From Yersinia massiliensis CCUG 53443 (GTDB lineage Bacteria > Pseudomonadota > Gammaproteobacteria > Enterobacterales > Enterobacteriaceae), in NCBI RefSeq assembly GCF_000312485.1, contig NZ_HE997648.1, forward strand, positions 1 to 63,446: a DNA stretch of 63,446 nucleotides, in the 5' to 3' direction. Below the pieces are notes generated by a model. That model was not told the origin of the DNA and ran no database searches. It saw nothing but the letters and a program-made list of their open reading frames with translations. Made by a program: the position numbers and the translations under genes. Within the stretch, counting starts at the first letter, position 1; the number at the start of each line of letters is the position of its first letter. Of this stretch, positions 2,388 to 47,075 are shown piece by piece.

Positions 2388-3385
2388 CGAATAGCGACCG
2401 ACCCACGCTCGATCAACTCGGGAGTGAGAATCAAGACTTGTGGTTCCGCTTCCGGGTTATTCAACCGATGAATTAGCGTATCAATGGCCAGTTCGCCAAG
2501 GTCATCTTTTGGCTGATGAATCGTGGTTAAAGGTGGGGTCATGTATTGTGCGATTTCAATATCATCGTAGCCGATAACCGCCATATCTTGCGGAATCGAT
2601 AATCCAGCCTGATGCAAAGCCTGATAGACCCCAACAGCCATGGCATCATTACTGGTAAACACAGCGTCAGGTGGCTCCGGCAGTGCAAGTAACTGCTGCA
2701 TGGCGGCCAAACCACCCCCAAATTCAAAATCACTGGCAACTTCATAGCCATTCGGCACCGGTAAACCCGCACGTGTCATGGCTTGACGGTAACCTTCCAA
2801 ACGTTCTTTCGCTGGAGTTTTATCCTGCGGCCCGGCAATACAGGCGATTCGGGTATAGCCTCTGGCAATCAGATATGAGGTTGCCATTTCTCCGCCAAAT
2901 AACGAGTTATCTTGAATGACATCGTTCACGCCCTCGAACGGTGCCCAGTCCATCATAATGATCGGTAACGAGGGATAACAACGCAGAATATCTTGGGAAG
3001 GGCGGTGACTTTCGGTACACATCAACAACAGACCATCGACCCGCTTTTGCATTAAGGTTTCAAGACTACGGCTCATGCGATCGATATCGCCTTCGGTATT
3101 ACACAAAATCAAACTGTAACCGCGCTCATAACAACTGCGTTCTACACCACGAACCACTTCAGCATAAAAGGGGTTACTACTGGCGGTGACCAGCATGCCG
3201 ATAGTCTGAGTTTGTTTCAGTTTTAGGCTACGGGCCAACGCAGAAGGGGCATAGTTGAGTTGACGAATAGCCGATTGCACTTTGTCGCGGATAGGGTCGC
3301 TGACAAAGCGATTTTTGTTAATCACATGGGAAACAGTCGATGTTGAGACGCCCGCTAAACGGGCGACATCTTTCATGGTGGCCAA
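2384..3385 (-). CDS. rbsR: Ribose operon repressor RbsR (LacI family)
   Basis: This 333-residue LacI-type repressor has an N-terminal helix-turn-helix ([20 protein letters not shown], residues 4-23) and a periplasmic-binding-protein-like effector domain. E. coli RbsR is 330 aa, binds D-ribose and releases the rbs promoter. It is the last gene of rbsDACBKR, 2 bp after rbsK, so it is probably autoregulated through the operon promoter. Two palindromes with the expected RbsR operator core lie upstream of rbsD (8337-8354 and 8415-8432), which supports the assignment. Its 3' end overlaps convergent hsrA. Confidence 0.95.
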
Positions 3386-3387
3386 AG

Positions 3388-4314
3388 TTATACCTGGCCT
3401 TGTAAGAAGCGGTCGATCTCAGCTCGCCATGGAATCGAGGGTTGCGCGCCAGCACGAGTCACCGCAATTGCAGCGGCTGCATGAGCAAAACGCACTGCGA
3501 GGCCCATTGTTTGGCCTTCTAATAATGCAGTGAGTAAAGCACCATTAAACGTATCACCAGCAGCAATGGTATCTACCGCATTCACTTTGAAACCCGCAAC
3601 CAATTGACCTTTACCTTGTTCGCTGAGCCAGACGCCTCGGCTACCCAAAGTAATGATCACCGTTGCAATCCCTTTATCATGCAAAATTTGTGCGGCTTTC
3701 GCGGCATCATCATCCTGCTCAATATGAATACCGGTTAAACGCTCAGCTTCGGTTTCATTCGGGGTAATCATATCCACCAGCGTTAACAACTCATCGGGAA
3801 GCTTACGCGCAGGGGCCGGATTTAGAATCACCTTCGTCTGATGCTGCTTCGCCAATTTAGCCGCAGCAATCACTGTCTCGAGTGGGGATTCTAATTGCAT
3901 GAGTAATGCTTCAGCATCAATAACTTGTTGCTGGTAACGGCTGAGGTATTCAGGTGTCACAGCAGCGTTAGCACCCGCGTTGATACCAATAACGTTCTCA
4001 CCTTCACCATTGACGAAAATCAGTGCCACACCCGTAGTCGTTCCAACAACAGCCTCGATTGGGGTGGTATCAATCTCATCGCTGGCTAATTGCCGACGTA
4101 CTCGTTCACCAATATCATCTTCACCCACACAGGCAATAAACGCGATATTCGCCCCACTACGGCCAGCGGCAACAGCCTGATTCGCGCCTTTGCCACCGAA
4201 AGCAACGTTATACTGCTTCCCGATCACCGTTTCACCCGGACGTGGAAACTGCTCAATGTTCAGAATATGGTCGGCATTGATACTGCCGAGGACCACCAGC
4301 TTACCTGTTTCCAT
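3388..4314 (-). CDS. rbsK: Ribokinase
   Basis: This 308-residue PfkB-family sugar kinase phosphorylates D-ribose at O5 with ATP, feeding the pentose phosphate pathway. Visible signatures are [16 protein letters not shown] at about residues 41-56 and the C-terminal [11 protein letters not shown] around residue 255, which contains the catalytic aspartate and anion hole. E. coli RbsK has 309 aa. It lies between rbsB and rbsR. A strong perfect hairpin in the 77-bp rbsB-rbsK gap (4334-4366) probably lowers its expression relative to rbsB. ATG 4314 is preceded by a purine-rich AAGGAATAAATACG. Confidence 0.96.
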
Positions 4315-4333
4315 CGTATTTATTCCTTTGTCC

Positions 4334-4366
4334 TTGAAGTTGCAGGATTGTTTCCTGCAACTTCAA
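4334..4366 (-). repeat. Perfect hairpin between rbsB and rbsK
   Basis: TTGAAGTTGCAGGA (4334-4347) and its exact reverse complement (4353-4366) form a 14-bp stem with a 5-nt loop, 25 nt after the rbsB stop. There is no long U-run, so it is more likely an mRNA-stabilising or partly attenuating hairpin than a full terminator. The left flank and stem (CTTTGTCCTTG..GTTGCAGG) resemble the hairpin at 37594-37642, which also follows a binding-protein gene. This suggests an interspersed palindromic repeat family. Confidence 0.75.
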
Positions 4367-4391
4367 TTACCATGGGTATTTTAATTGATCT

Positions 4392-5285
4392 TTATTTGGT
4401 GACTAACTTCAAGTCAACAGGGATAACAGCCTGTACTTTTTCGCCTTTTAAGACTTTATCTGCTGTTTCAACGCCAATCACACCAATTTGGTCAGGGCGT
4501 TGAGCGATAGTTGCGCCCAGTTTACCGCTTTCAACCGCTTTAATCCCATCGTCGGTGCCGTCAAACCCTACCACTAACACATCTGTTTTGCCTGCGGTCT
4601 GCAAGGCACGTAATGCACCCAGTGCCATTTCATCGTTCTGAGCAAAAACAGCCTGCACGGTCGGATGCGCAGTCAGCAAGTTTTGCATGACGTTCAAGCC
4701 CTTAGTGCGGTCAAAATCAGCAGGCTGGCTGGCCAGCAATTGGAATTTGTTCTTTTCCATCGACTGTTTAAAGCCTTCACCACGTTCACGGGCCGCAGAT
4801 GCTCCAGCGATCCCTTCTAACTGAATAACTTTGGCATCACTACCCAATTTCTTAGCAATAAAGTCACCGGCCATTTTGCCGCCAAAACGGTTATCAGATG
4901 CGACGTGGCTCACCACAGTGCCAGCGTTAGCCAGACGGTCAAGAGTGATAACCGGAATGTTCGCCTGATTTGCCATTTTCACTGCGTTACCGACAGCATC
5001 TGAGTCTGTTGGGTTAATCAGCAGAATTTTGGTGCCACGAACGGTTAAGTCCTGCACGTTCGCCAGCTCTTTCGCAGGGTTGTTTTGCGAATCCAAGACC
5101 ACCAAGTTGTAACCCAGTTTGTCTGCTTCTTTTTGGGCACCCTCTTTCATTGAAACAAAGAACGGGTTATTCAGCGTGGAAACAACCAATGCGATAGTGT
5201 CTTTTGCCAGCGCGTTAGCACTGACGGTAGCGCTTAATGCAACAACTGAGATCAAGGTAGCCAGTTTCTTCATTTTCATGGTCAC
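4392..5285 (-). CDS. rbsB: D-ribose periplasmic binding protein RbsB
   Basis: This 297-residue periplasmic receptor captures ribose for the RbsABC importer and can present it to the Trg chemoreceptor in E. coli. A Sec signal peptide is visible ([24 protein letters not shown], cleavage about residue 28), followed by a two-lobed sugar-binding fold of the LacI/RbsB family. E. coli RbsB has 296 aa. It is the fourth gene of rbsDACBKR. The start could be ATG 5285 or the third codon ATG 5279. The annotated one follows CTACAGGAATAGTGACC. Confidence 0.97.
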
Positions 5286-5344
5286 TATTCCTGTAGGGAG
5301 TTAGCAAATTCAACTTAGTAGGCATTATTGCTGCGTAAAATAGC

Positions 5345-6310
5345 CTACTGCTTTTTGTTATCTACCAACACCGCAAGCAAGATAACCACTGCTTTCACGA
5401 TCATTTGGTAGTAAGAGGAGACGCCCAATAAATTCAAACCGTTATTCAAGAAACCGAGGATTAATGCCCCTATCAGGGTGCCGACGATCCGCCCTTTCCC
5501 GCCCGCAAGGCTTGTACCACCTAGAACGACGGCCGCAATGGCGTCCAGTTCATAACCTGTACCGGCAGTGGGTTGTGCAGACGACAAGCGGGCCACTTCG
5601 ATAATCCCCGCCAATGCCGCTAATAATCCGCAGAGTGAATAAACAATAATTTTAACTTTGTCGACACTGATACCAGAGAGCCGTGTGGCAGACTCATTAC
5701 CGCCTAACGCATAGATATAGCGACCTAAACGGGTGTGATGCAGCATGTACCAAGCGGCAATAAAGACGATAGCCATCAACCAGATAGGGGTTGGTATACC
5801 GAATGGACGACCAATACCGAACCAGCCAAAGGTGTCCGCTACATCGGTAAAACCGGTATTGATCGGGCTACCATTGGTGTAAACCATGGTCACGCCACGC
5901 AATAACAACATCATGACCAGTGTGGCGATAAACGCCTGTACTTTACCTTTGGCGACGATGACGCCAGTAATACCACCAATGAATGCCCCCAGCGCCAGTG
6001 CTGCGGCAACGGCTACCAAGGCATTAACTTCTAATCCGACAATCGAGGCGGCCACTGCACCGGTCAGTGCCAATAATGATCCCACAGACAGATCAATACC
6101 GGAAGTCAGGATAACCAGTGTCATCCCAACGGCCATAATGGCGTTGACAGATGTCTGCTGGAGAATGTTAAACAAGTTATTGACGGTAAAAAAGTTTGGG
6201 CTTAGTGACGAAACCACAGCAATCAGCACCAGCAGCGCAATCAGTGATTTTTGTTCTAATAACCATTCTTTACTGAACCAGCGTTTTGTCTGGATCGTTT
6301 GGGAACTCAT
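5345..6310 (-). CDS. rbsC: Ribose ABC transporter permease RbsC
   Basis: This 321-residue inner-membrane permease of the branched-chain/monosaccharide class is the same length as in E. coli. About eight to ten hydrophobic segments are evident, with the family loop GGNESATRLSGISVDKVK that contacts the ATPase. It works as a dimer with RbsA on the cytoplasmic side and receives ribose from RbsB. It lies 59 bp upstream of rbsB and 87 bp after rbsA in the operon. Confidence 0.96.
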   Translation of the reverse strand: MSSQTIQTKRWFSKEWLLEQKSLIALLVLIAVVSSLSPNFFTVNNLFNILQQTSVNAIMAVGMTLVILTSGIDLSVGSLLALTGAVAASIVGLEVNALVAVAAALALGAFIGGITGVIVAKGKVQAFIATLVMMLLLRGVTMVYTNGSPINTGFTDVADTFGWFGIGRPFGIPTPIWLMAIVFIAAWYMLHHTRLGRYIYALGGNESATRLSGISVDKVKIIVYSLCGLLAALAGIIEVARLSSAQPTAGTGYELDAIAAVVLGGTSLAGGKGRIVGTLIGALILGFLNNGLNLLGVSSYYQMIVKAVVILLAVLVDNKKQ

Positions 6311-6397
6311 ATCTGGTTACTCCTGCTCTACGCGCTATGACCGATTAATAATCAGCGAATTGATGATCGACTGATGAATAATGGGCTTATTGATAAT

Positions 6398-7897
6398 CTA
6401 CTTATCAGTAAATTGTTTGCCGACGGCGGCTGCCATCAACACTTCTTGGGTAGCCTGTTCAATCGAGAACTCGCCGCTTAACTGGCCTTCATGCATTACA
6501 AGGATACGGTCACTCATACCGAGCACTTCTGGCATTTCTGAGGAAACAAGAATGATGCTCAACCCTTCTTCTTTGAATTGATTAATTAACTGGTAAATCT
6601 CTTTTTTAGCCCCGACGTCAACGCCACGCGTAGGCTCATCAAGGATCAACACCTTCGGACGAGTCATCAAACCGCGCGCAATCGCGACTTTCTGCTGATT
6701 ACCACCGGATAACAAACCAATAGGCTGTTCCATGGAAGGTGTTTTGATATTAAATAAGCGAATGAAATCGGCGACTGCCTGCTGTTCGTCCGCATGTTTG
6801 AGTGAACCACCTGTGCGGCTGAAATAACGTAGTGCCGTCAAAGACATATTCTCTTTAACTGACATGCCAAGCACTAAGCCATCCCGCTTACGATCTTCAG
6901 AAATGTAAACGATGCCGTTTGCTAAACCATCCTGAGGTGAATGCGTAACCACTTCACGGCCATCCAACATAATAAATCCGGATTTACGTGGTAGTGCGCC
7001 ATAGATGATTTTCATCAATTCCGTGCGACCCGCGCCCATCAAACCCGCCACGCCGAGGATCTCTCCACGATGCAAGGTAAAACTGACATTACTCACGCCT
7101 GGGCCACACAGCTGTTTGACCTGTAAGCGCTTTTCACCGCGGGGTAAATTCAGGCGTGGATATTGCTCTTCTAACTTGCGGCCAACCATCATCTCAATCA
7201 GTGTATTCTCGGTCAGCTCGCTAACCGGTTTTTCTGCGATAAACTGCCCATCACGGAAAACGGTAACGTCATCGCAAATTTCAAAGATTTCTTTTAGCCG
7301 ATGAGAGATATAAACGATGCCACGGCCTTCAGCTTTCAACTCTTTAATGACGTTAAATAATGAAGCGGTTTCGGTATCAGTAAGGGCGTCAGTGGGTTCG
7401 TCCATAATGATGACTTTGGATTCAAAGCTCAGCACTTTGGCAATTTCCACCATTTGCTGATCACCGATGGACAATTCCCCCACCAGCCGGTGGCTGCTGT
7501 AATGAATATTGAGGCGTGCTAACAGTAAATCAGCTTCGGCATACATCTTTTTCCAATCGATGCCACCAAAGCGATTAACGAACTCGCGCCCTAAAAAGAT
7601 GTTTTCTGCGATGGTTAACTGTGGGATCAGGTTAAGTTCCTGATGAATAATGCCAATGCCCGCTTCCTGCGAGTCTTTTGGGCCATTAAACACCACTTCT
7701 TTACCCATGAAATGCTGACTGCCGGCATCCTTACTGTAGATGCCAGTCAGCACTTTCATCATGGTCGATTTTCCAGCCCCATTTTCGCCCACCAGTGCCA
7801 TCACCCTGCCAGGATAGACACTGAGCGCGGCACCGGAGAGTGCTTTGACGCCGGGAAAGGCTTTATCAATCCCTTTCAGTTGCAGCAAAGGTTGCAT
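6398..7897 (-). CDS. rbsA: Ribose ABC transporter ATP-binding protein RbsA
   Basis: This 499-residue protein has two tandem ABC modules and powers ribose import (E. coli 501 aa). The N-terminal module has Walker [10 protein letters not shown] (about residues 37-45), signature LSIGDQQM and Walker [12 protein letters not shown]. The C-terminal module has the degenerate Walker [10 protein letters not shown], signature LSGGNQQK and [11 protein letters not shown], as usual for sugar importers of this class. It starts 7 bp after rbsD, so translation is probably coupled. Confidence 0.97.
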
Positions 7898-40196: not shown

Positions 40197-41525
40197 ATGA
40201 GTACACCAAACCTTGATACTGAGCAGGGGCTGCTCGAACGTGTTTTTAAACTAAAGCAACATGGCACCACGGCACGTACCGAGCTGATCGCCGGTATCAC
40301 CACGTTTCTGACCATGGTCTATATCGTATTCGTTAACCCGCAAATCTTAGGGGTGGCGGGTATGGATGTGCAGGCCGTTTTCGTCACCACGTGTTTGATC
40401 GCCGCTTTTGGCAGCATCTTTATGGGTCTATTGGCGAACTTACCCGTAGCACTGGCTCCGGCCATGGGGCTAAATGCTTTCTTCGCGTTTGTGGTCGTTG
40501 GCGCGATGGGTATTTCATGGCAGGTTGGCATGGGTGCGATTTTCTGGGGCGCAATCGGTTTCCTTTTGCTCACTATTTTCCGCATTCGTTATTGGATGAT
40601 AGCCAACATTCCGTTGAGTCTGCGTGTGGGGATCACCAGCGGTATTGGTCTGTTTATCGCCATGATGGGGCTGAAAAACGCCGGTATCGTGGTCGCCAAT
40701 CCAGATACCTTGGTGGCTGTCGGTAATTTGACCTCACATAGCGTGCTGCTGGGCGCTTTGGGCTTCTTTATTATTGCGGTGTTAGCATCGCGCAATATCC
40801 ATGCTGCGGTACTGGTTTCTATCGTCGTGACCACCTTGATCGGTTGGGCGCTGGGCGATGTACACTACACTGGCCTCTTCTCTATGCCACCAAGTGTGAC
40901 TTCAGTCGTCGGGCAAGTTGATCTGGCAGGGGCATTGAACATTGGTATGGCGGGGATTATTTTCTCCTTCATGCTGGTTAACTTGTTCGACTCATCCGGC
41001 ACATTGATCGGCGTAACAGATAAAGCCGGGTTAACCGATAATAAAGGCAAGTTTCCTCGCATGAAACAAGCGCTGTACGTCGACAGTATCAGCTCTGTCG
41101 CTGGTGCGTTTATCGGTACCTCGTCAGTCACTGCTTATATCGAAAGCTCATCGGGTGTTTCAGTCGGTGGTCGTACGGGCTTAACGGCTGTTGTCGTGGG
41201 CATCCTGTTCCTGTTGGTGATGTTTATTTCACCATTGGCAGGGATGGTGCCTGCCTATGCGGCTGCTGGTGCACTGATTTATGTGGGTGTATTGATGACG
41301 TCGAGCTTATCCCGCGTTAAATGGGATGATTTGACCGAAGCTGTTCCTGCCTTTGTGACCGCAGTGATGATGCCGTTTAGCTTCTCCATTACGGAAGGTA
41401 TCGCGCTGGGCTTTATCTCTTATTGCTTGATGAAGTTGGGGACGGGGCGCTGGCGTGAAATCAGCCCATGCGTGGTGGTGGTTGCGCTGCTGTTTGTGCT
41501 GAAAATAGCTTTTGTTGATCATTAA
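40197..41525 (+). CDS. adeP: Adenine permease AdeP (NCS2/AzgA family)
   Basis: This 442-residue inner-membrane purine:H+ symporter is of the AzgA-like NCS2 group (E. coli AdeP/YieG 445 aa). The early block RTELIAGITTFLTMVYIVFV and the substrate-site region NLFDSSGTLIGVTDKAGL are diagnostic. About fourteen membrane segments are visible. ATG 40197 lacks a strong Shine-Dalgarno (TGCGGAACGCCATAA). It stands next to yieH, as in E. coli, and ends in a strong terminator. Confidence 0.92.
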   Translation: MSTPNLDTEQGLLERVFKLKQHGTTARTELIAGITTFLTMVYIVFVNPQILGVAGMDVQAVFVTTCLIAAFGSIFMGLLANLPVALAPAMGLNAFFAFVVVGAMGISWQVGMGAIFWGAIGFLLLTIFRIRYWMIANIPLSLRVGITSGIGLFIAMMGLKNAGIVVANPDTLVAVGNLTSHSVLLGALGFFIIAVLASRNIHAAVLVSIVVTTLIGWALGDVHYTGLFSMPPSVTSVVGQVDLAGALNIGMAGIIFSFMLVNLFDSSGTLIGVTDKAGLTDNKGKFPRMKQALYVDSISSVAGAFIGTSSVTAYIESSSGVSVGGRTGLTAVVVGILFLLVMFISPLAGMVPAYAAAGALIYVGVLMTSSLSRVKWDDLTEAVPAFVTAVMMPFSFSITEGIALGFISYCLMKLGTGRWREISPCVVVVALLFVLKIAFVDH

Positions 41526-41569
41526 TTATCAGTGATTAGCCAATGACTGTTGGGATTAACCATTGATTG

Positions 41570-41609
41570 AAAACGCCCCCATTGTAGACACTGAGGGTGG
41601 GGGCGTTTT
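41570..41609 (+). terminator. adeP terminator
   Basis: AAAACGCCCCCA (41570-41581) and TGGGGGCGTTTT (41598-41609) form a perfect 12-bp stem with a 16-nt loop. The T-rich right arm terminates plus-strand transcription, and the A-rich left arm would serve the convergent DUF336 gene on the minus strand. Confidence 0.9.
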
Positions 41610-41612
41610 GGC

Positions 41613-41652
41613 ATTGTTTTAGGCTTTCAATAGATTGTTTTAGGCTTTCAAT
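41613..41652. repeat. 21-bp tandem duplication across a stop codon
   Basis: ATTGTTTTAGGCTTTCAAT occurs at 41613-41631 and again at 41634-41652, separated by AG, a 21-bp period. The second copy contains the stop codon and last codons of the DUF336 gene. Seven codons' length means the duplicate keeps frame, but it lies beyond the stop. Confidence 0.85.
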
Positions 41653-42134
41653 TGAGCGCTGATTTGTTCCAGTGCTTTAGTGGCACATTGTGCATCCAAA
41701 TGCCCACCCGGCGCACCAGCAACACCTACCGCACCGACAACTTCATCGCCCGCTTTCACTGGCACACCGCCACCTAACAGCAAGAAGCCTGGGATATCTT
41801 TCAGGTTGTTGGCTGCTGGCGTTTTTTGGCTGTTTTCCATTACTTGCCCGCTTGGCGTTTTAGTGGATAGTGCCGTAAATGCTTTTTGTTCGCTGGCTTT
41901 AACGGTATGTGGGCCTGCATTGTCACCACGCAGTACGGTTTTAATGATACCCGCACGATCAACCACAGTGACGGAGACGTTGTAGCCATCAGCCTGACAA
42001 ACCGCGAGGGTACGGCTCGCTAAATCGCTGGCCAGCGCCAAAGAAATATTACGTTCAGTGTTTAGACCCGCCGCAGAAGCTTGTGTTAACAGGCCGATGA
42101 ATAAGGCAGAAGTGAGGGCAATAGGCTTGATCAT
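41640..42134 (-). CDS. Exported DUF336 (GlcG/HbpS-like) protein
   Basis: This 164-residue protein has a Sec signal peptide (LTSALFIGLLTQASA, cleavage about residue 22) and a single GlcG/HbpS domain. Family blocks are VVDRAGIIKTVLRGDNAGPH, FLLLGGGVPVKAGDEVVG and VGVAGAPGGHLDAQCA. Homologues form octamers. Streptomyces HbpS binds heme and acts as extracellular partner of the SenS-SenR two-component system. Here the gene lies 158 bp downstream of a response regulator and sensor kinase on the same strand, which suggests a similar accessory-sensor role. Heme binding is not shown by sequence alone. Confidence 0.85.
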   Translation of the reverse strand: MIKPIALTSALFIGLLTQASAAGLNTERNISLALASDLASRTLAVCQADGYNVSVTVVDRAGIIKTVLRGDNAGPHTVKASEQKAFTALSTKTPSGQVMENSQKTPAANNLKDIPGFLLLGGGVPVKAGDEVVGAVGVAGAPGGHLDAQCATKALEQISAQLKA

Positions 42135-42233
42135 AGAGAATCCTTATTGTTAGCAACGTGATTTCATCACAATGTCATCATCCTACGATGATAGGTGGTG
42201 AAAAAACATTCGGCTAATTACCCGTTTTGATCC

Positions 42234-42243
42234 GTAGATCTAC
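42234..42243. promoter_or_regulatory. Palindrome GTAGATCTAC before the DUF336 gene
   Basis: This perfect 10-bp palindrome lies about 100 bp upstream of the DUF336 start and just after the response regulator stop. It is a candidate site for that regulator, but no consensus is known to compare it with. Confidence 0.3.
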
Positions 42244-42292
42244 CTAGTTCTCGACTCTCGACGTGACTTAACGTCCTGTGAGGATATGGCCA

Positions 42293-42892
42293 TTATATTA
42301 ATGGCGCGTAATGATGTATGAGCAATGCCAGCGAGTTAACGTCCAGTTTTGCAAAGATATTGGCGCGATGGGCTTCCACAGTTCGAGGTGAAAGGGACAA
42401 TACATTTGCAATTTGCTTGCTGGTTTCACCCTGAATAATCAGGGCAGCAACTTCTCTTTCACGGGCGGTCAGTTGGCTAAATAACTGCTGATAACCTTTC
42501 TGTTGGCGATGAGCGGCTAGCGCTTGTTCATGTTGCTCCAATGCTAAACTGATGGTTTCGATCAACACATCGGCATCAATCGGTTTGGTCAGAAACTCCA
42601 GCGCGCCACCTTTGAAGGCGCGGCGACACAATTCAATATTGCCATGCCCCGTCATTATGATGACCGGAAGCGTACTATCACGAGCTTGAATGGCTTCCAA
42701 TACGGCCATACCACTTTTGCCGGGCATTCTGATATCCACTAGCACGCAACTGGGGTGGGTAACTGCTAAAGTATCGAGGAACGCCTGCCCATTACTGAAG
42801 GCTTTGACTTCCCAGCCCATGGTCGCGAGCAATACGGTGAGCGCGGCGCGTACACCTTCATCGTCATCAATCAGATAAATGTGTTTAGTCAT
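42293..42892 (-). CDS. Two-component response regulator, FixJ/NarL type
   Basis: This 199-residue regulator has a receiver domain (about 1-120) with acidic pocket DDDE at residues 9-12, phosphoacceptor Asp53 (LVDIRMPG), Thr81 and Lys103. A LuxR-type helix-turn-helix follows (TAREREVAALIIQGETSKQI to VEAHRANIFAKL, about 138-190). It resembles FixJ and TtrR. It overlaps the kinase gene by 8 bp, so the two are translationally coupled. The likely target is the downstream DUF336 gene, its own operon or chrR, but this is inference. Confidence 0.9.
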   Translation of the reverse strand: MTKHIYLIDDDEGVRAALTVLLATMGWEVKAFSNGQAFLDTLAVTHPSCVLVDIRMPGKSGMAVLEAIQARDSTLPVIIMTGHGNIELCRRAFKGGALEFLTKPIDADVLIETISLALEQHEQALAAHRQQKGYQQLFSQLTAREREVAALIIQGETSKQIANVLSLSPRTVEAHRANIFAKLDVNSLALLIHHYAPLI

Positions 42893-44237
42893 GCGTACTC
42901 CCTGTGGTTGTGATGGGGAAAGTCAGCGTAAAGCAGGCACCGCCCTGTTCACTGTTCCCTGCTTTTATGTCACCGCCCATGCGTTGTACCAATGTTTCGC
43001 ACAGCGTTAACCCCAGCCCTAATCCGCTCTCCCGAGTGGTGTAGAACGGGGTAAACAGGTTATCCAACTGTTCATTGCTAAGCCCCGGCCCATTATCTTC
43101 AATCTGGATTATCCATTGTTTGTGTTGAACAGTTTGCTGGGGTTGAACAGTCACGGTGAAATAAATCTTGGGCGTGGGGGTATGTTGCAGGACATGAATT
43201 GCGTTACTGAGTAAATTATGAAGAACTTGCTCCAGCCACAGTGGGTCACTTTGTAGCGGTGGTAAATGTGCGGGGATATTGCTACGAACCGTCACATTGG
43301 CGGCAATAATCTCTTGGTTTAACAGCATATTCACTCGCCGCCAGATATCGGCCACGATAACCGGTTGTAGGTTTATTTGCCCACGACTCAGTAGGGTTCG
43401 CAGGCGGTCGAGCAGCGCGGCAATCCGCTTGATTTGCTCAACGGAGGCGGTCAGCAGGGGCGCGACTTTTTCATCCTGTGGCGGCAACAATCGCAGTGCT
43501 GTCTGGTTATAAGTCAGTGTGGCAGTCAGGGGCTGGTTTAGCTCATGGGCGATACCCGTTGCAATCTCCCCCATGGCATTAAGTCTGGCTTGGTCGGCGA
43601 ATTTAGCCCGTTGCTCAGCATGTAGGCGGTGTTGTGCCAGTTGTTGCCACCGATGCCAGCCATACAGCGCTGCACCTGTTAGCAGTGAAAGTAACAATGC
43701 GGTTAACCAAGGTAAATTGCGCCAAATCGGAGTGGCATGCCCAATTAGGGTAAATGACTGTGCTCCTTCCCCTAATGGTTTTTGCCACTGCCAGAAGCTT
43801 TTGGCAGCAGAGTGGCCCAGCTCTGCGAGTTGATGCTGTTGATAGCGCAATACCACACTGTCAAAATTGGCGGGTAACCCCACAACCTCGAGTAAACGCA
43901 TCCCATTCACTTTCAAACCGCTGCCGCTATAGGAATTAGAGAGCCAATAATCGTCACCCTCAATTTTCAGGGTAAGCCGGCCTGCTTTTGAGCGGTCTAC
44001 TGTCATTTGTTCGATGGCGGTCAATTGCGGGAAATGGCGTTGCAGTTGCGTGAGTTGATTCGGTTCAAGTGTCAAAAAAAGCAGCGCCTGCTGTTGAGCC
44101 AATTGCTGGCTCAGTTCACGATGCGTAGTGCGAAAATCAGCTTCACGTTCAGCTTGTTGTGTGTTCAGCCCATACCACCCTAACCAGAGTGAGTAGATCA
44201 GGGTCAGCACCAGCCAAAGTGTGATTTTTATGGCCAT
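42885..44237 (-). CDS. Two-component sensor histidine kinase
   Basis: This 450-residue kinase has a first membrane helix (about 5-24), a periplasmic sensor region (about 25-174) with no recognisable domain, and a second helix (about 176-194). A HisKA domain follows with phosphoacceptor His231 (GIAHELNQPLTATLTYNQ), then an HATPase domain with N box NLLSNAIHVL (about 341-350), G1 DNGPGLS (381-387) and G2 GLGLGL (405-410). The HELNQPL form groups it with FixL/DctB/TtrS kinases. It has no PAS domain. It partners with the overlapping regulator gene and lies 101 bp after chrR. Confidence 0.9.
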   Translation of the reverse strand: MAIKITLWLVLTLIYSLWLGWYGLNTQQAEREADFRTTHRELSQQLAQQQALLFLTLEPNQLTQLQRHFPQLTAIEQMTVDRSKAGRLTLKIEGDDYWLSNSYSGSGLKVNGMRLLEVVGLPANFDSVVLRYQQHQLAELGHSAAKSFWQWQKPLGEGAQSFTLIGHATPIWRNLPWLTALLLSLLTGAALYGWHRWQQLAQHRLHAEQRAKFADQARLNAMGEIATGIAHELNQPLTATLTYNQTALRLLPPQDEKVAPLLTASVEQIKRIAALLDRLRTLLSRGQINLQPVIVADIWRRVNMLLNQEIIAANVTVRSNIPAHLPPLQSDPLWLEQVLHNLLSNAIHVLQHTPTPKIYFTVTVQPQQTVQHKQWIIQIEDNGPGLSNEQLDNLFTPFYTTRESGLGLGLTLCETLVQRMGGDIKAGNSEQGGACFTLTFPITTTGSTHD

Positions 44238-44275
44238 CGGTCAGCAGTATCCGCAAATAGAGTGGTCAGAGTGGG

Positions 44276-44314
44276 GACAAAATAACTCCCCAATGCCCAT
44301 AAGGGGATGGGGAG
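44276..44314 (-). terminator. chrR terminator
   Basis: On the minus strand CTCCCCAT-CCCC (44303-44314) pairs with GGG-ATTGGGGAG (44286-44298) around TTAT, then TTATTTTG. This 11-to-12-bp stem 25 bp after the chrR stop would separate chrR from the kinase gene. Confidence 0.7.
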
Positions 44315-44338
44315 CTTCAGCGTTGTCTCGATAAAAAT

Positions 44339-44911
44339 TTACTTCACGCGAACGCGATCGATGTAAGTCGCAAAAGCGGCAAGTTGACCGGTCAGAAAAT
44401 CTAATGTTCCTTGCTCGACCAGTTCTTTGGCCTGTTCATCCACTTTAGTTTGAATCACTCCGCCCATAAATTCAGGCTTATTCATCACCATCGCATCGAG
44501 GAAAACCAAAATTTGGCGCAGGTGATACTGGCAACGTGCACCGCCAATCGGCCCCATAGAGCTGGTTTGGATTGCAACCGGTTTACCCGCTAGCGGCTGA
44601 TTCGGTAAACGGGAAAGCCAGTCGATAGCATTCTTCAATCCGCCGGGTACGGAATAGTTATATTCCGGCGTCACAATAATCACACCATCCGCTTGGCGTA
44701 TTTGGTCAGCAATGGCCTGAACTGCTGCAGGAATACCCTCTTCTTGCTGGACATCAGCATCATAAAGCGGAATGTCGCGAATAGAGGGCAGTGCTTCAAT
44801 AGTGACACCCGCAGGGGCTAATTTTGGCAGCGCACGGGCCACCATCGCGTTGTAAGAACCACTGCGCAAGCTACCCAACAGGGTAACAATTTTAAGGGAT
44901 TGCTGTGACAT
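44339..44911 (-). CDS. chrR: NAD(P)H-dependent FMN quinone/chromate reductase ChrR (YieF)
   Basis: This 190-residue flavodoxin-like oxidoreductase (E. coli 188 aa) has LLGSLRSGSYN as the FMN phosphate loop and VTPEYNYSVPGGLKNAIDWL near residue 80 as second flavin block. It reduces quinones and chromate by two electrons, limiting oxidative stress. It is close to adeP and yieH, as in E. coli, but the two-component system and DUF336 gene are inserted between. The start ATG 44911 is preceded by GGGAGTAAGTC. Confidence 0.93.
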   Translation of the reverse strand: MSQQSLKIVTLLGSLRSGSYNAMVARALPKLAPAGVTIEALPSIRDIPLYDADVQQEEGIPAAVQAIADQIRQADGVIIVTPEYNYSVPGGLKNAIDWLSRLPNQPLAGKPVAIQTSSMGPIGGARCQYHLRQILVFLDAMVMNKPEFMGGVIQTKVDEQAKELVEQGTLDFLTGQLAAFATYIDRVRVK

Positions 44912-45170
44912 GACTTACTCCCATTTAGTAAATGAATAACACTATTTCACACTCAGAGTAGGACAAATTTGCGCGATATAACAATGACTATCTGCCGTGT
45001 TACCCCTATAAATTTCACTTAAGCGATCACGGCTTGCGTGTTAATTACACAGAAATTGTGATCGCCGGAGAGAAACAGAAAAATCGTTTCAATCCGTTAT
45101 CAAGTCTCTGCGTGAAATGCCGTTAATAGATCTGGAGCTATCCAGCTCTCTGACATTGAGCGACACGATA

Positions 45171-47075
45171 ATGCTAAAAACCACTCAAGCCCGATTCACC
45201 TTACTCGTTAGTGCCTTTTTCATTCTTTTGCTAATAATCACTGTTGTGGTTATTCAGCTTTTTGTGACACCACAACTCAAACAATCTGAGAGCACCATTG
45301 TAGGTAACAGTGTTGACCAAATCGCGACGGCCATTACGGCGCAGATGAATAAAGTGGAAGCACAAGCCCGCAGTATTACTCAGGCTGTTGCTATTATGGA
45401 CAGCAATACCATCGACTCATTATTACCGGGGTTGGTGGATCAATATGGCGATAGTAATGTCTTCGGTGGTGGTATTTGGCCATTGCCGAATAAACGCGAG
45501 CAAGGGGTGACGAAATTCAGCACCTTTTTTGCCCGTAATGGGGAAAATAAGTTAACTGTTAACACCCATTGGAACTCGCCGGAATCACAGAATTATTTTG
45601 AACAGCCGTGGTACAAAGATGGCTTAAATGCGCCCAAAGGCTTCTGTGCTTGGGCTAAAGCTTATCAGGATGATGCCAGCCCGCAGCCGAGAACTAACTG
45701 CGCCATGGCTATCTATAAAGGCAATGAGGTATATGGCGTTTCAACCATTGATGTCACTTTAGGTTTCTTTAACCGCTTAGTGAAAGAGATGGAGCAGAAA
45801 GTGGACGGTACCATCTTAATTGTTGAAGCGGATGGCAAGATTGTCGGGAGTAGCGCGTTAGCAGATGGTAAGGCAGAACTAAAAAATCTGTCTGACTTTA
45901 CTGGCAGTTTGCCAATGGCGGCAGAAACGCAGCGGTTGTTACCGCAAATGAAAGATCTCACCTCGCTGGAAAGCGAGTATGACGTCGATGGCACCTCTCA
46001 CACCCTGTTTATTCGCCCAATCGCCAATAGCCCTTGGTATTTGGTTACTGACCTGCCCACCAGCTTATTGGTTAAGCAAAGTCATAGCATCCTGATGCAT
46101 TTGGGGTTAGTGCAGATCCCTATTATGTTGTTATTGCTGCTATTCCTTGTGTTCTCTATCCGCGTCTTTATGAAGCGTTTAGCGAATCTAAACGAAAATA
46201 TCACCGCATTGTCTGCGGGCGGGGCTGATTTAACTCAGCGTTTGCCAGAAAGCAGTAGTCCGGAGTTCAATGCCATTAATCAGAGTTTCAACGCATTTAT
46301 CGACTATTTGCAGCAAATGATGCGTCAGGTTGGTGAAAGCAGTCTGGCTATTGCCTCGGCGTCGCGCCAAATCGCCAGCGGTAATCTGGATTTATCTGCC
46401 CGTACTGAAGATCAAGCCAGCTCCATTGAAGAGACGGCTGCGTCGATGGATGAACTCACCAGTACCGTTAAGCAAAATGCGGATAATGCCAGCCACGCCA
46501 ACCAACTGGCAATGGACGCATCGACTGTCGCCGTGAAAGGCAGCACCGTGGTGAAACAAGTGGTGGATACCATGGGTTCTATCAATCATTCCTCGAAGAA
46601 AATTGTCGATATCATTAGTGTGATTGACAGTATTGCCTTCCAAACCAACATTTTGGCGCTGAATGCGGCAGTCGAGGCCGCCAGAGCGGGGGAACAAGGT
46701 CGTGGTTTTGCCGTCGTGGCATCAGAGGTGCGTAATTTGGCGCAACGTTCAGCCACTTCTGCCCGCGAGATTAAAAAGCTGATTGAAGACTCGGTGGCTG
46801 ATATTGCCATTGGTACTGGGTTAGTGGCTGATGCGGGGTCGACCATGGATGACCTGATGAGCGGCGTTTCCAATGTGGCGGCACTGATGAATGAAATCAT
46901 GTCGTCCAGTCAGGAGCAAAGTTTGGGTATCGAACAGGTTAATTTGGCGATTAATCAGCTGGATAACTCGACTCAGCAAAATGCGGCGCTGGTGGAACAA
47001 GTGGCCGCAGCTGCTCAGGCGATGCAGGATCAAACTTTGCAGCTAGAAAGTGTGATTAGCGGTTTTAAAGTCTAA
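45171..47075 (+). CDS. Methyl-accepting chemotaxis protein with dCACHE-type sensor
   Basis: This transmembrane chemoreceptor of 634 residues (652 if started at ATG 45117) has a first membrane helix at about 10-32, a long periplasmic double-CACHE-like sensor (about 35-285) with the [13 protein letters not shown] block, and a second helix (about 300-322). HAMP spans about 323-375. The methylation and signalling domain contains [20 protein letters not shown]. There is no C-terminal NWETF pentapeptide, so adaptation would need help from other receptors. I prefer ATG 45171 because it places the membrane helix directly after a short N-terminus and has GAGC nearby. The ligand is unknown. Confidence 0.88.

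Follow-up and report, generated by a model that had tools for sequence, protein, structure and literature searches.

We report that three neighbouring genes, encoding a membrane-bound sensor histidine kinase, a FixJ/TtrR-like response regulator and a secreted protein of the HbpS family (DUF336), almost certainly work as one unit in Yersinia massiliensis CCUG 53443. They lie in a stretch of 63,446 nucleotides (contig NZ_HE997648.1, positions 1 to 63,446), hereafter called the window, and probably constitute a self-contained periplasmic sense-and-respond cassette, with the HbpS-like protein as the output of the regulator. The list of open reading frames (ORFs) and the Pfam assignments of the contig give the minus-strand gene order chrR, kinase, regulator and hbpS, followed by the convergent adeP, and reproduce the coordinates and the common minus strand reported for the HbpS-like ORF, the regulator, the kinase and ChrR in the initial annotation of this DNA. 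The regulator ORF overlaps the kinase ORF by 8 bp and is separated from hbpS by a gap of 158 bp. The elements of the cassette are:

42885..44237, minus strand: sensor histidine kinase, 450 aa, with a first transmembrane segment (TM1), a periplasmic domain, a probable second segment (TM2), HisKA and HATPase_c
43698..44174, minus strand: periplasmic sensor region of the kinase, residues 22–180, compact and dCache-like in the structure model
42293..42892, minus strand: FixJ/TtrR-like response regulator, 199 aa, Response_reg and GerE, scoring under the curated cut-offs of FixJ and TtrR
42208..42236, minus strand: conserved operator-like element, 29 bp, TACGGATCAAAACGGGTAATTAGCCGAAT
42234..42243, minus strand: palindrome GTAGATCTAC over the 5' end of the operator, GTA-N4-TAC in some relatives; the operator is better conserved
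42180..42185, minus strand: -10 hexamer TAGGAT, 22 bp past the operator, predicted activator-dependent hbpS promoter
41640..42134, minus strand: HbpS-family secreted protein, 164 aa, with Cys46, Cys150, His76, Lys84 and Asp147
42069..42134, minus strand: Sec-type signal peptide of the hbpS product, about 22 residues, read by eye

Conservation and spread of the cassette

According to the initial annotation, the two-component system (TCS) belongs together with the secreted DUF336 protein, and comparative analysis bears this out. A kinase profile search was carried out on named genome contigs and the 80 best loci were retained; an HbpS-like gene lies just 3' of the regulator in 34 of the 40 loci matched in the sensor region, versus 0 of the 39 matched in the kinase core only (4 of these 39 have less than 1300 bp downstream, too short to judge), while the 80th locus (L045), truncated within the kinase, does have HbpS. 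Six sensor-matched loci lack HbpS. L017 breaks off right after the regulator and is too short downstream to judge, and in L005, L022 and L049 the HbpS position is occupied by a small beta-barrel protein of the outer membrane (OMP_b-brl, hereafter OMP); the remaining two are considered below. Of 25 Yersinia genomes, 20 have both the kinase and HbpS, and the other 5 have neither. A neighbourhood check in Enterobacterales, which the initial annotation had called for, likewise revealed a conserved linkage: in a sample of 394 genomes of the order the kinase occurs in 15, with HbpS 718–784 bp downstream in 14 of them, and in the sole exception (G392) an OMP gene takes the place of HbpS. All 14 HbpS places scoring at least 158 bits in this sample are linked to the kinase, and none of the 17 weaker ones is. 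Taken together, the linkage goes far past what chance would produce.

The cassette recurs on chromosomes as well as plasmids: the same gene order was found on annotated plasmids of Pantoea (two), Duffyella, Variovorax, Pseudomonas silvicola, Rhizobium, Paracoccus and two Deinococcus species, and the kinase-regulator-HbpS order also on a Salmonella plasmid typed as conjugative, while a search for a phage link of the cassette returned no match. On the P. silvicola plasmid (L087) the regulator is annotated at just 124 aa, and on the D. psychrotolerans plasmid (L230) two overlapping ORFs are annotated across the HbpS stretch. A presumed joint decay of kinase and HbpS in genome G272 was withdrawn, because the HbpS frame is intact and the counted stops lie past its natural end; the kinase of this genome has one TAG, at the extreme N-terminus only.

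The putative operator and the predicted hbpS promoter

The interval between the regulator gene and hbpS contains an element of fixed length (29 bp), TAC[CG]NRG-N8-GTA-N6-CGAAT, found in 79 of 85 intergenic rows (which include repeated places) and represented by 63 distinct sequences from Enterobacterales and Burkholderiales. In 61 of the 63 distinct sites it is followed by TANNNT at an offset of exactly +22; of the other offsets from 14 to 31, this hexamer occurs at 14, 15, 25 and 27 only (1, 3, 1 and 5 times, respectively). The corresponding hexamer of the window, TAGGAT, was not listed by a general promoter scan. A position weight matrix (PWM) built from 55 distinct sites gives the operator of the window a score of 28.6, and no other position in the window reaches 10. 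Over 2.09 Mb of partly overlapping loci, 83 matches scoring at least 12 lie upstream of HbpS or OMP genes at a distance of no more than 420 bp, and 15 lie elsewhere. The latter include the site of the window itself and 8 readings of the same element on the other strand, which leaves 6. Loci without HbpS have the element ahead of the OMP gene in L005 (score 14.8) and L022 (21.2), and in L168, a cassette from outside the class, the single match (11.0) lies upstream of hbpS.

The loose operator pattern has 50 matches in the Y. massiliensis genome (91 for the reversed control), with one full site, at hbpS, and a next-best PWM score of 10.8. Of the 20 Yersinia genomes with the cassette, 19 contain the exact operator with its -10 hexamer, each time at hbpS, and the 20th (G017) has it with one mismatch; scanning of the 25 Yersinia genomes revealed no exact copy except at hbpS. 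A few one-mismatch operator sequences are shared between Yersinia genomes, and the five that were scored reach at most 9.1. The position of the element and its exclusivity point to the regulator as the protein that binds it, and the conserved operator and promoter ahead of hbpS, the sole place of exact copies in the 25 Yersinia genomes, suggest that HbpS is a dedicated output of the regulator. Thus, as judged from sequence, the regulator very likely controls hbpS directly, and hbpS looks like its main chromosomal target in Yersinia.

The secreted HbpS-like protein

The product of hbpS matches PF03928 with 105.8 bits (gathering score 25; E 2e-30). Among solved structures the best match is 3FPV, the HbpS of Streptomyces reticuli (90.2 bits), followed by 4NKP (60.9) and 2A2L (36.7); with NahX, EfgA and PduO at 35.5, 28.5 and 14.6 bits, HbpS is a nearer solved structure than OrfY or any of these three. 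The same genome has two other PF03928 places, namely PduO (L001) and a 168-aa protein (L003) that shows no visible signal peptide and has a transporter alongside. The alignment equates Lys83 and Asp143 of S. reticuli HbpS with Lys84 and Asp147 of the Yersinia protein, which are conserved in 76/76 and 75/76 distinct cassette HbpS proteins, respectively (the remaining one is gapped). The iron motif E78XXE81 of S. reticuli HbpS is not retained, the aligned residues being Lys79 and Glu82; the text accompanying a 2013 alignment, which already contained an HbpS-like protein from Yersinia rohdei, notes that HbpS-like proteins often keep one of the two EXXE glutamates (PMC3754957).

The export signal was identified by eye as Sec-type and is devoid of the twin-arginine motif, whereas S. 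reticuli HbpS is described in a passage of PMC8153426 as exported via the twin-arginine translocation (Tat) pathway. The cassette protein differs from S. reticuli HbpS also in its two conserved cysteines, which the latter is without. We rejected the cysteines as a cassette-specific trait, since both are present in 16/17 HbpS proteins linked to other TCSs and in 25/27 unlinked ones. His76 tracks TCS linkage better (76/76 in the cassette, 17/17 in other TCS-linked and 17/27 in unlinked proteins), and Lys127 tracks cassette membership (74/76, 4/17 and 3/27, respectively).

The kinase and the response regulator

The closest named relative of the kinase is from Y. mollaretii (85%). The kinase core resembles AtoS, ZraS, TtrS and FixL; TM2 (residues about 177–196) was assigned by eye, as the hydropathy scan flagged TM1 only. 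The initial annotation had described the periplasmic loop as lacking a recognised domain, which holds for the Pfam scan (no domain found there) but not for the structure prediction, which yielded a confident model of a compact, dCache-like fold. In fold searches with the whole kinase the matches were taken up by the kinase core. From this model, the loop is likely a dCache-like domain. A candidate swap of the input domain in Deinococcus, based on a PAS match in L228, was dropped, as D. psychrotolerans retains the sensor motif HR..SQ...Q (by eye).

The regulator has FixJ and TtrR as its best NCBIfam matches, with scores below the curated cut-offs (185.6 versus 255 and 171.4 versus 290, respectively); the sensor domain and the target gene of the cassette differ from those of FixL/FixJ and TtrS/TtrR.

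As in HbpS-SenS-SenR of Streptomyces, the genes for a membrane kinase and a response regulator stand together with that for an exported member of the HbpS family. However, SenS is a kinase of HisKA_3 (NarX) type, whereas the kinase described here has HisKA PF00512 with an AtoS/FixL-like core, the regulator family also differs, and the gene order is hbpS-senS-senR in Streptomyces versus kinase-regulator-HbpS in the cassette. These differences in families and gene order agree with the earlier suggestion that the association in Yersinia is separate from that of SenS-SenR.

Accessory genes and other pairings of HbpS with two-component systems

In 25 loci an ankyrin-repeat gene directly follows hbpS on its 3' side (L013, L015, L016, L026, L027, L029, L030, L032–L035, L039, L043, L044, L050, L053, L055, L058, L060, L084, L143, L144, L146, L167 and L168); the named ones are Burkholderiales or Pseudomonadota bins, and an ankyrin-repeat gene also follows hbpS in D. 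psychrotolerans (L230). As another such fourth gene, an OMP gene is found in 7 loci, corresponding to 5 distinct places. In one of these places, L129 (G050, 3153–4470), HbpS and OMP_b-brl occur together and no two-component genes were found nearby. The genome of Y. massiliensis has an unlinked OMP_b-brl homologue (G000:C5:194425-195084; L142, L196), 61% identical to the OMP of G392; it was rejected as a second target of the regulator, as no PWM match of at least 10 occurs in the surrounding 10.5 kb (part of which is masked).

A phylum-wide sample of 398 genomes, searched for HbpS relatives at E 1e-12 or better, gave 52 HbpS places in 49 genomes. Nineteen are in the cassette, 6 are divergent from a regulator-kinase pair, 3 (L156, L159, L160) are divergent from a receiver, the kinase model having detected no kinase there, and 24 are without a two-component gene within 2.5 kb. 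In L159 the receiver ORF encodes 121 aa and belongs to the heavy-metal regulator type. In the order sample, which has genome G045 in common with the phylum sample, 11 of the 17 unlinked HbpS places were examined: 7 are divergent from a regulator-kinase pair, one is followed by an NtrC-type pair and 3 are without a kinase. There are 12 distinct divergent pairs (L132, L133, L134, L135/L185, L136, L139, L141, L148–L151, L174), and all 6 regulators examined are OmpR-type. In the L148 pair, sensor and regulator each pass the cut-offs of their heavy-metal (CusRS/CzcRS-like) subfamilies; the pair in G045 (L185) shows a likeness to the heavy-metal subfamilies with scores below the cut-offs. The divergent OmpR-type arrangement is apparently a second, independent pairing of HbpS with a TCS. 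A third kind is seen in L140 (G402, 4005–7621), where an HbpS-like gene precedes genes for a kinase and a sigma-54 regulator of the NtrC type.

Could HbpS-type proteins be a general third component, recruited repeatedly by unrelated TCS families (SenS-SenR of actinobacteria, the dCache/FixJ-type cassette of Pseudomonadota and Deinococcota, the divergent heavy-metal/HprRS-like OmpR-type of other gammaproteobacteria and the NtrC-type), each with a private operator, as a mobile sense-and-buffer module? We regard this as quite conceivable, though slightly less probable than the contrary.

Possible function of the cassette

We propose that the inner-membrane kinase would detect a periplasmic compound via its small domain of predicted dCache-like fold and, as expected from the protein families, phosphorylate the FixJ-type regulator, which would bind the 29-bp operator and activate the hbpS promoter (the site and its geometry are indicated by conservation). 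The HbpS-like protein would leave the cytoplasm via Sec, is probably oligomeric by analogy with S. reticuli HbpS, and may bind, degrade or buffer the sensed or a related compound, possibly with feedback on the kinase. In other bacteria the unit is extended downstream by a gene for an ankyrin-repeat protein or for the OMP, or has the OMP in place of HbpS. Direct contact between HbpS and the kinase is a tentative suggestion, and the idea that the ligand is heme, another tetrapyrrole or redox-active iron is slightly more doubtful; heme in particular is a guess by analogy, from HbpS family membership.

Several observations weigh against this reading. L025 and L037 possess the kinase and the regulator without HbpS (L037 has an OMP-like ORF about 5.5 kb off). 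At a PWM threshold of 10, the element is absent before the OMP gene in L137 and L049, and from the cassettes L158, L167, L169 and L170, which are outside the class. The regulon scan detects near-consensus sites only, and weaker targets could exist. Finally, the mean p-distance within Yersinia is 0.040 for HbpS versus 0.16–0.18 for the kinase, and such a slow evolution suggests that HbpS is under a constraint beyond this single partner.

An alternative is that the protein acts as an accessory sensor, i.e. that HbpS, once exported, would be the true sensor, binding the ligand itself and docking on the periplasmic domain of the kinase in the manner of HbpS-SenS or LuxP-LuxQ, the induction of hbpS by the regulator thus closing a feedback loop. 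LuxP-LuxQ is a precedent, in which a kinase with a tandem-PAS/dCache-like periplasmic domain cooperates with a separate periplasmic protein, and HbpS-SenS has the HbpS family in common with the cassette but a different kinase family. We consider this role possible, although on balance it is not the one we would expect.

Or perhaps the cassette is a nutrient or catabolic switch, in which the kinase uses its dCache-like domain to sense an organic compound that HbpS in turn processes or binds, heme and redox being irrelevant? The dCache-like fold is suited to small organic ligands, and the protein does not retain the EXXE iron motif found inside S. reticuli HbpS. Moreover, DUF336 proteins are mentioned in a section of PMC8153426 as occurring in glycolate, propanediol and aromatic-compound clusters, with EfgA binding formaldehyde. 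However, no catabolic gene was seen travelling with the cassette, whose flanks vary among the lineages examined except for the ankyrin and OMP genes, and the two conserved periplasmic cysteines together with the divergent heavy-metal/HprRS-like pairings lean towards redox or metal. We rate this explanation as rather unlikely. Variovorax-like loci do share flanks among themselves.

Borders of the cassette, its possible insertion and its loss

The cassette is flanked in the window by the following features:

44339..44911, minus strand: chrR (yieF), FMN_red, flanking gene outside the cassette
44276..44322, minus strand: hairpin with a T-rich tail in the chrR/kinase interval (-20.2 kcal/mol, z -4.0)
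41566..41612, no strand assigned: likely terminator hairpin in the interval from hbpS to adeP, which is convergent (-19.2 kcal/mol, z -4.0)
40197..41525, plus strand: adeP, the flank on the other side

Neither hairpin was flagged by a consensus terminator scan, which covers short loops only. A gene for a dCache methyl-accepting chemotaxis protein (window positions 45117–47075) adjoins chrR on the opposite strand, and is retained also in the cassette-less genome G005.

The initial annotation had included ChrR in the unit, and a redox unit in which the kinase and the regulator govern both hbpS and chrR would account for the adjacency of the genes on the same strand, an arrangement preserved in the 20 Yersinia genomes with the cassette to the extent that the loci were compared; this is very improbable, given the strong hairpin between chrR and the kinase, the absence of an operator (PWM of at least 10) upstream of chrR in the window, the restriction of chrR relatives to Yersinia among the loci examined, and the adjacency of chrR and adeP in cassette-less genomes. 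The last arrangement is found in 3 of the 5 cassette-less Yersinia (G005, G009, G016; of the other two, G021 has no chrR match and G022 a weak one, 29%) and in an E. coli record, where chrR(yieF), adeP and yieH stand in a row, as earlier noted, and the cassette is absent. We therefore place chrR outside the cassette, from which the hairpin likely separates it.

The E. coli order and the genomes G009 and G016 agree with the earlier view that the cassette was inserted between adeP and chrR, but G005 (L126) has evidently taken another course: its chrR-adeP gap retains the last 68 bases of hbpS (21 codons) with 60/68 identity and a local score of 52, versus 15 for the best of 500 shuffles and 8 and 9 for the gaps of G009 and G016, respectively. 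This hbpS 3' remnant, a deletion scar, indicates that the cassette was lost there.

Relation to earlier reports and implications

In the part of a 2008 paper that deals with them, the two-component systems YE4185/YE4186 and Plu0102/Plu0103 are called unique to Yersinia and Photorhabdus, insect signals are proposed for them, and ye4187 and plu0104 are given as secreted, homologous putative targets, ye4187 with a putative GlcG domain (PMC2266911). YE4185/YE4186-ye4187 of Y. enterocolitica and Plu0102/Plu0103-plu0104 of Photorhabdus are very probably the same cassette, matched here by the description in that paper only. Among the matches listed for the open-access literature, no other paper was found with those YE and Plu tags, and no further report of the cassette; in PMC6421349, as far as the matching text goes, a single table row names a DUF336 protein. 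Whereas two genera were claimed for the system, the cassette is found here also in further Enterobacterales, Burkholderiales, Rhizobium, Paracoccus and Deinococcus, and the operator, the predicted sensor fold and the tie of the secreted protein to HbpS are added to the earlier account. A statement in a 2016 paper confines the clustering of hbpS-like genes with senS and senR to actinobacteria (PMC4991794). What appeared from these reports as a curiosity of two genera and an actinobacterial peculiarity is seen here as a signalling unit that is widespread, is carried in part on plasmids and has a defined operator, and the role of HbpS-type proteins in the Gram-negative periplasm becomes a directly testable question.

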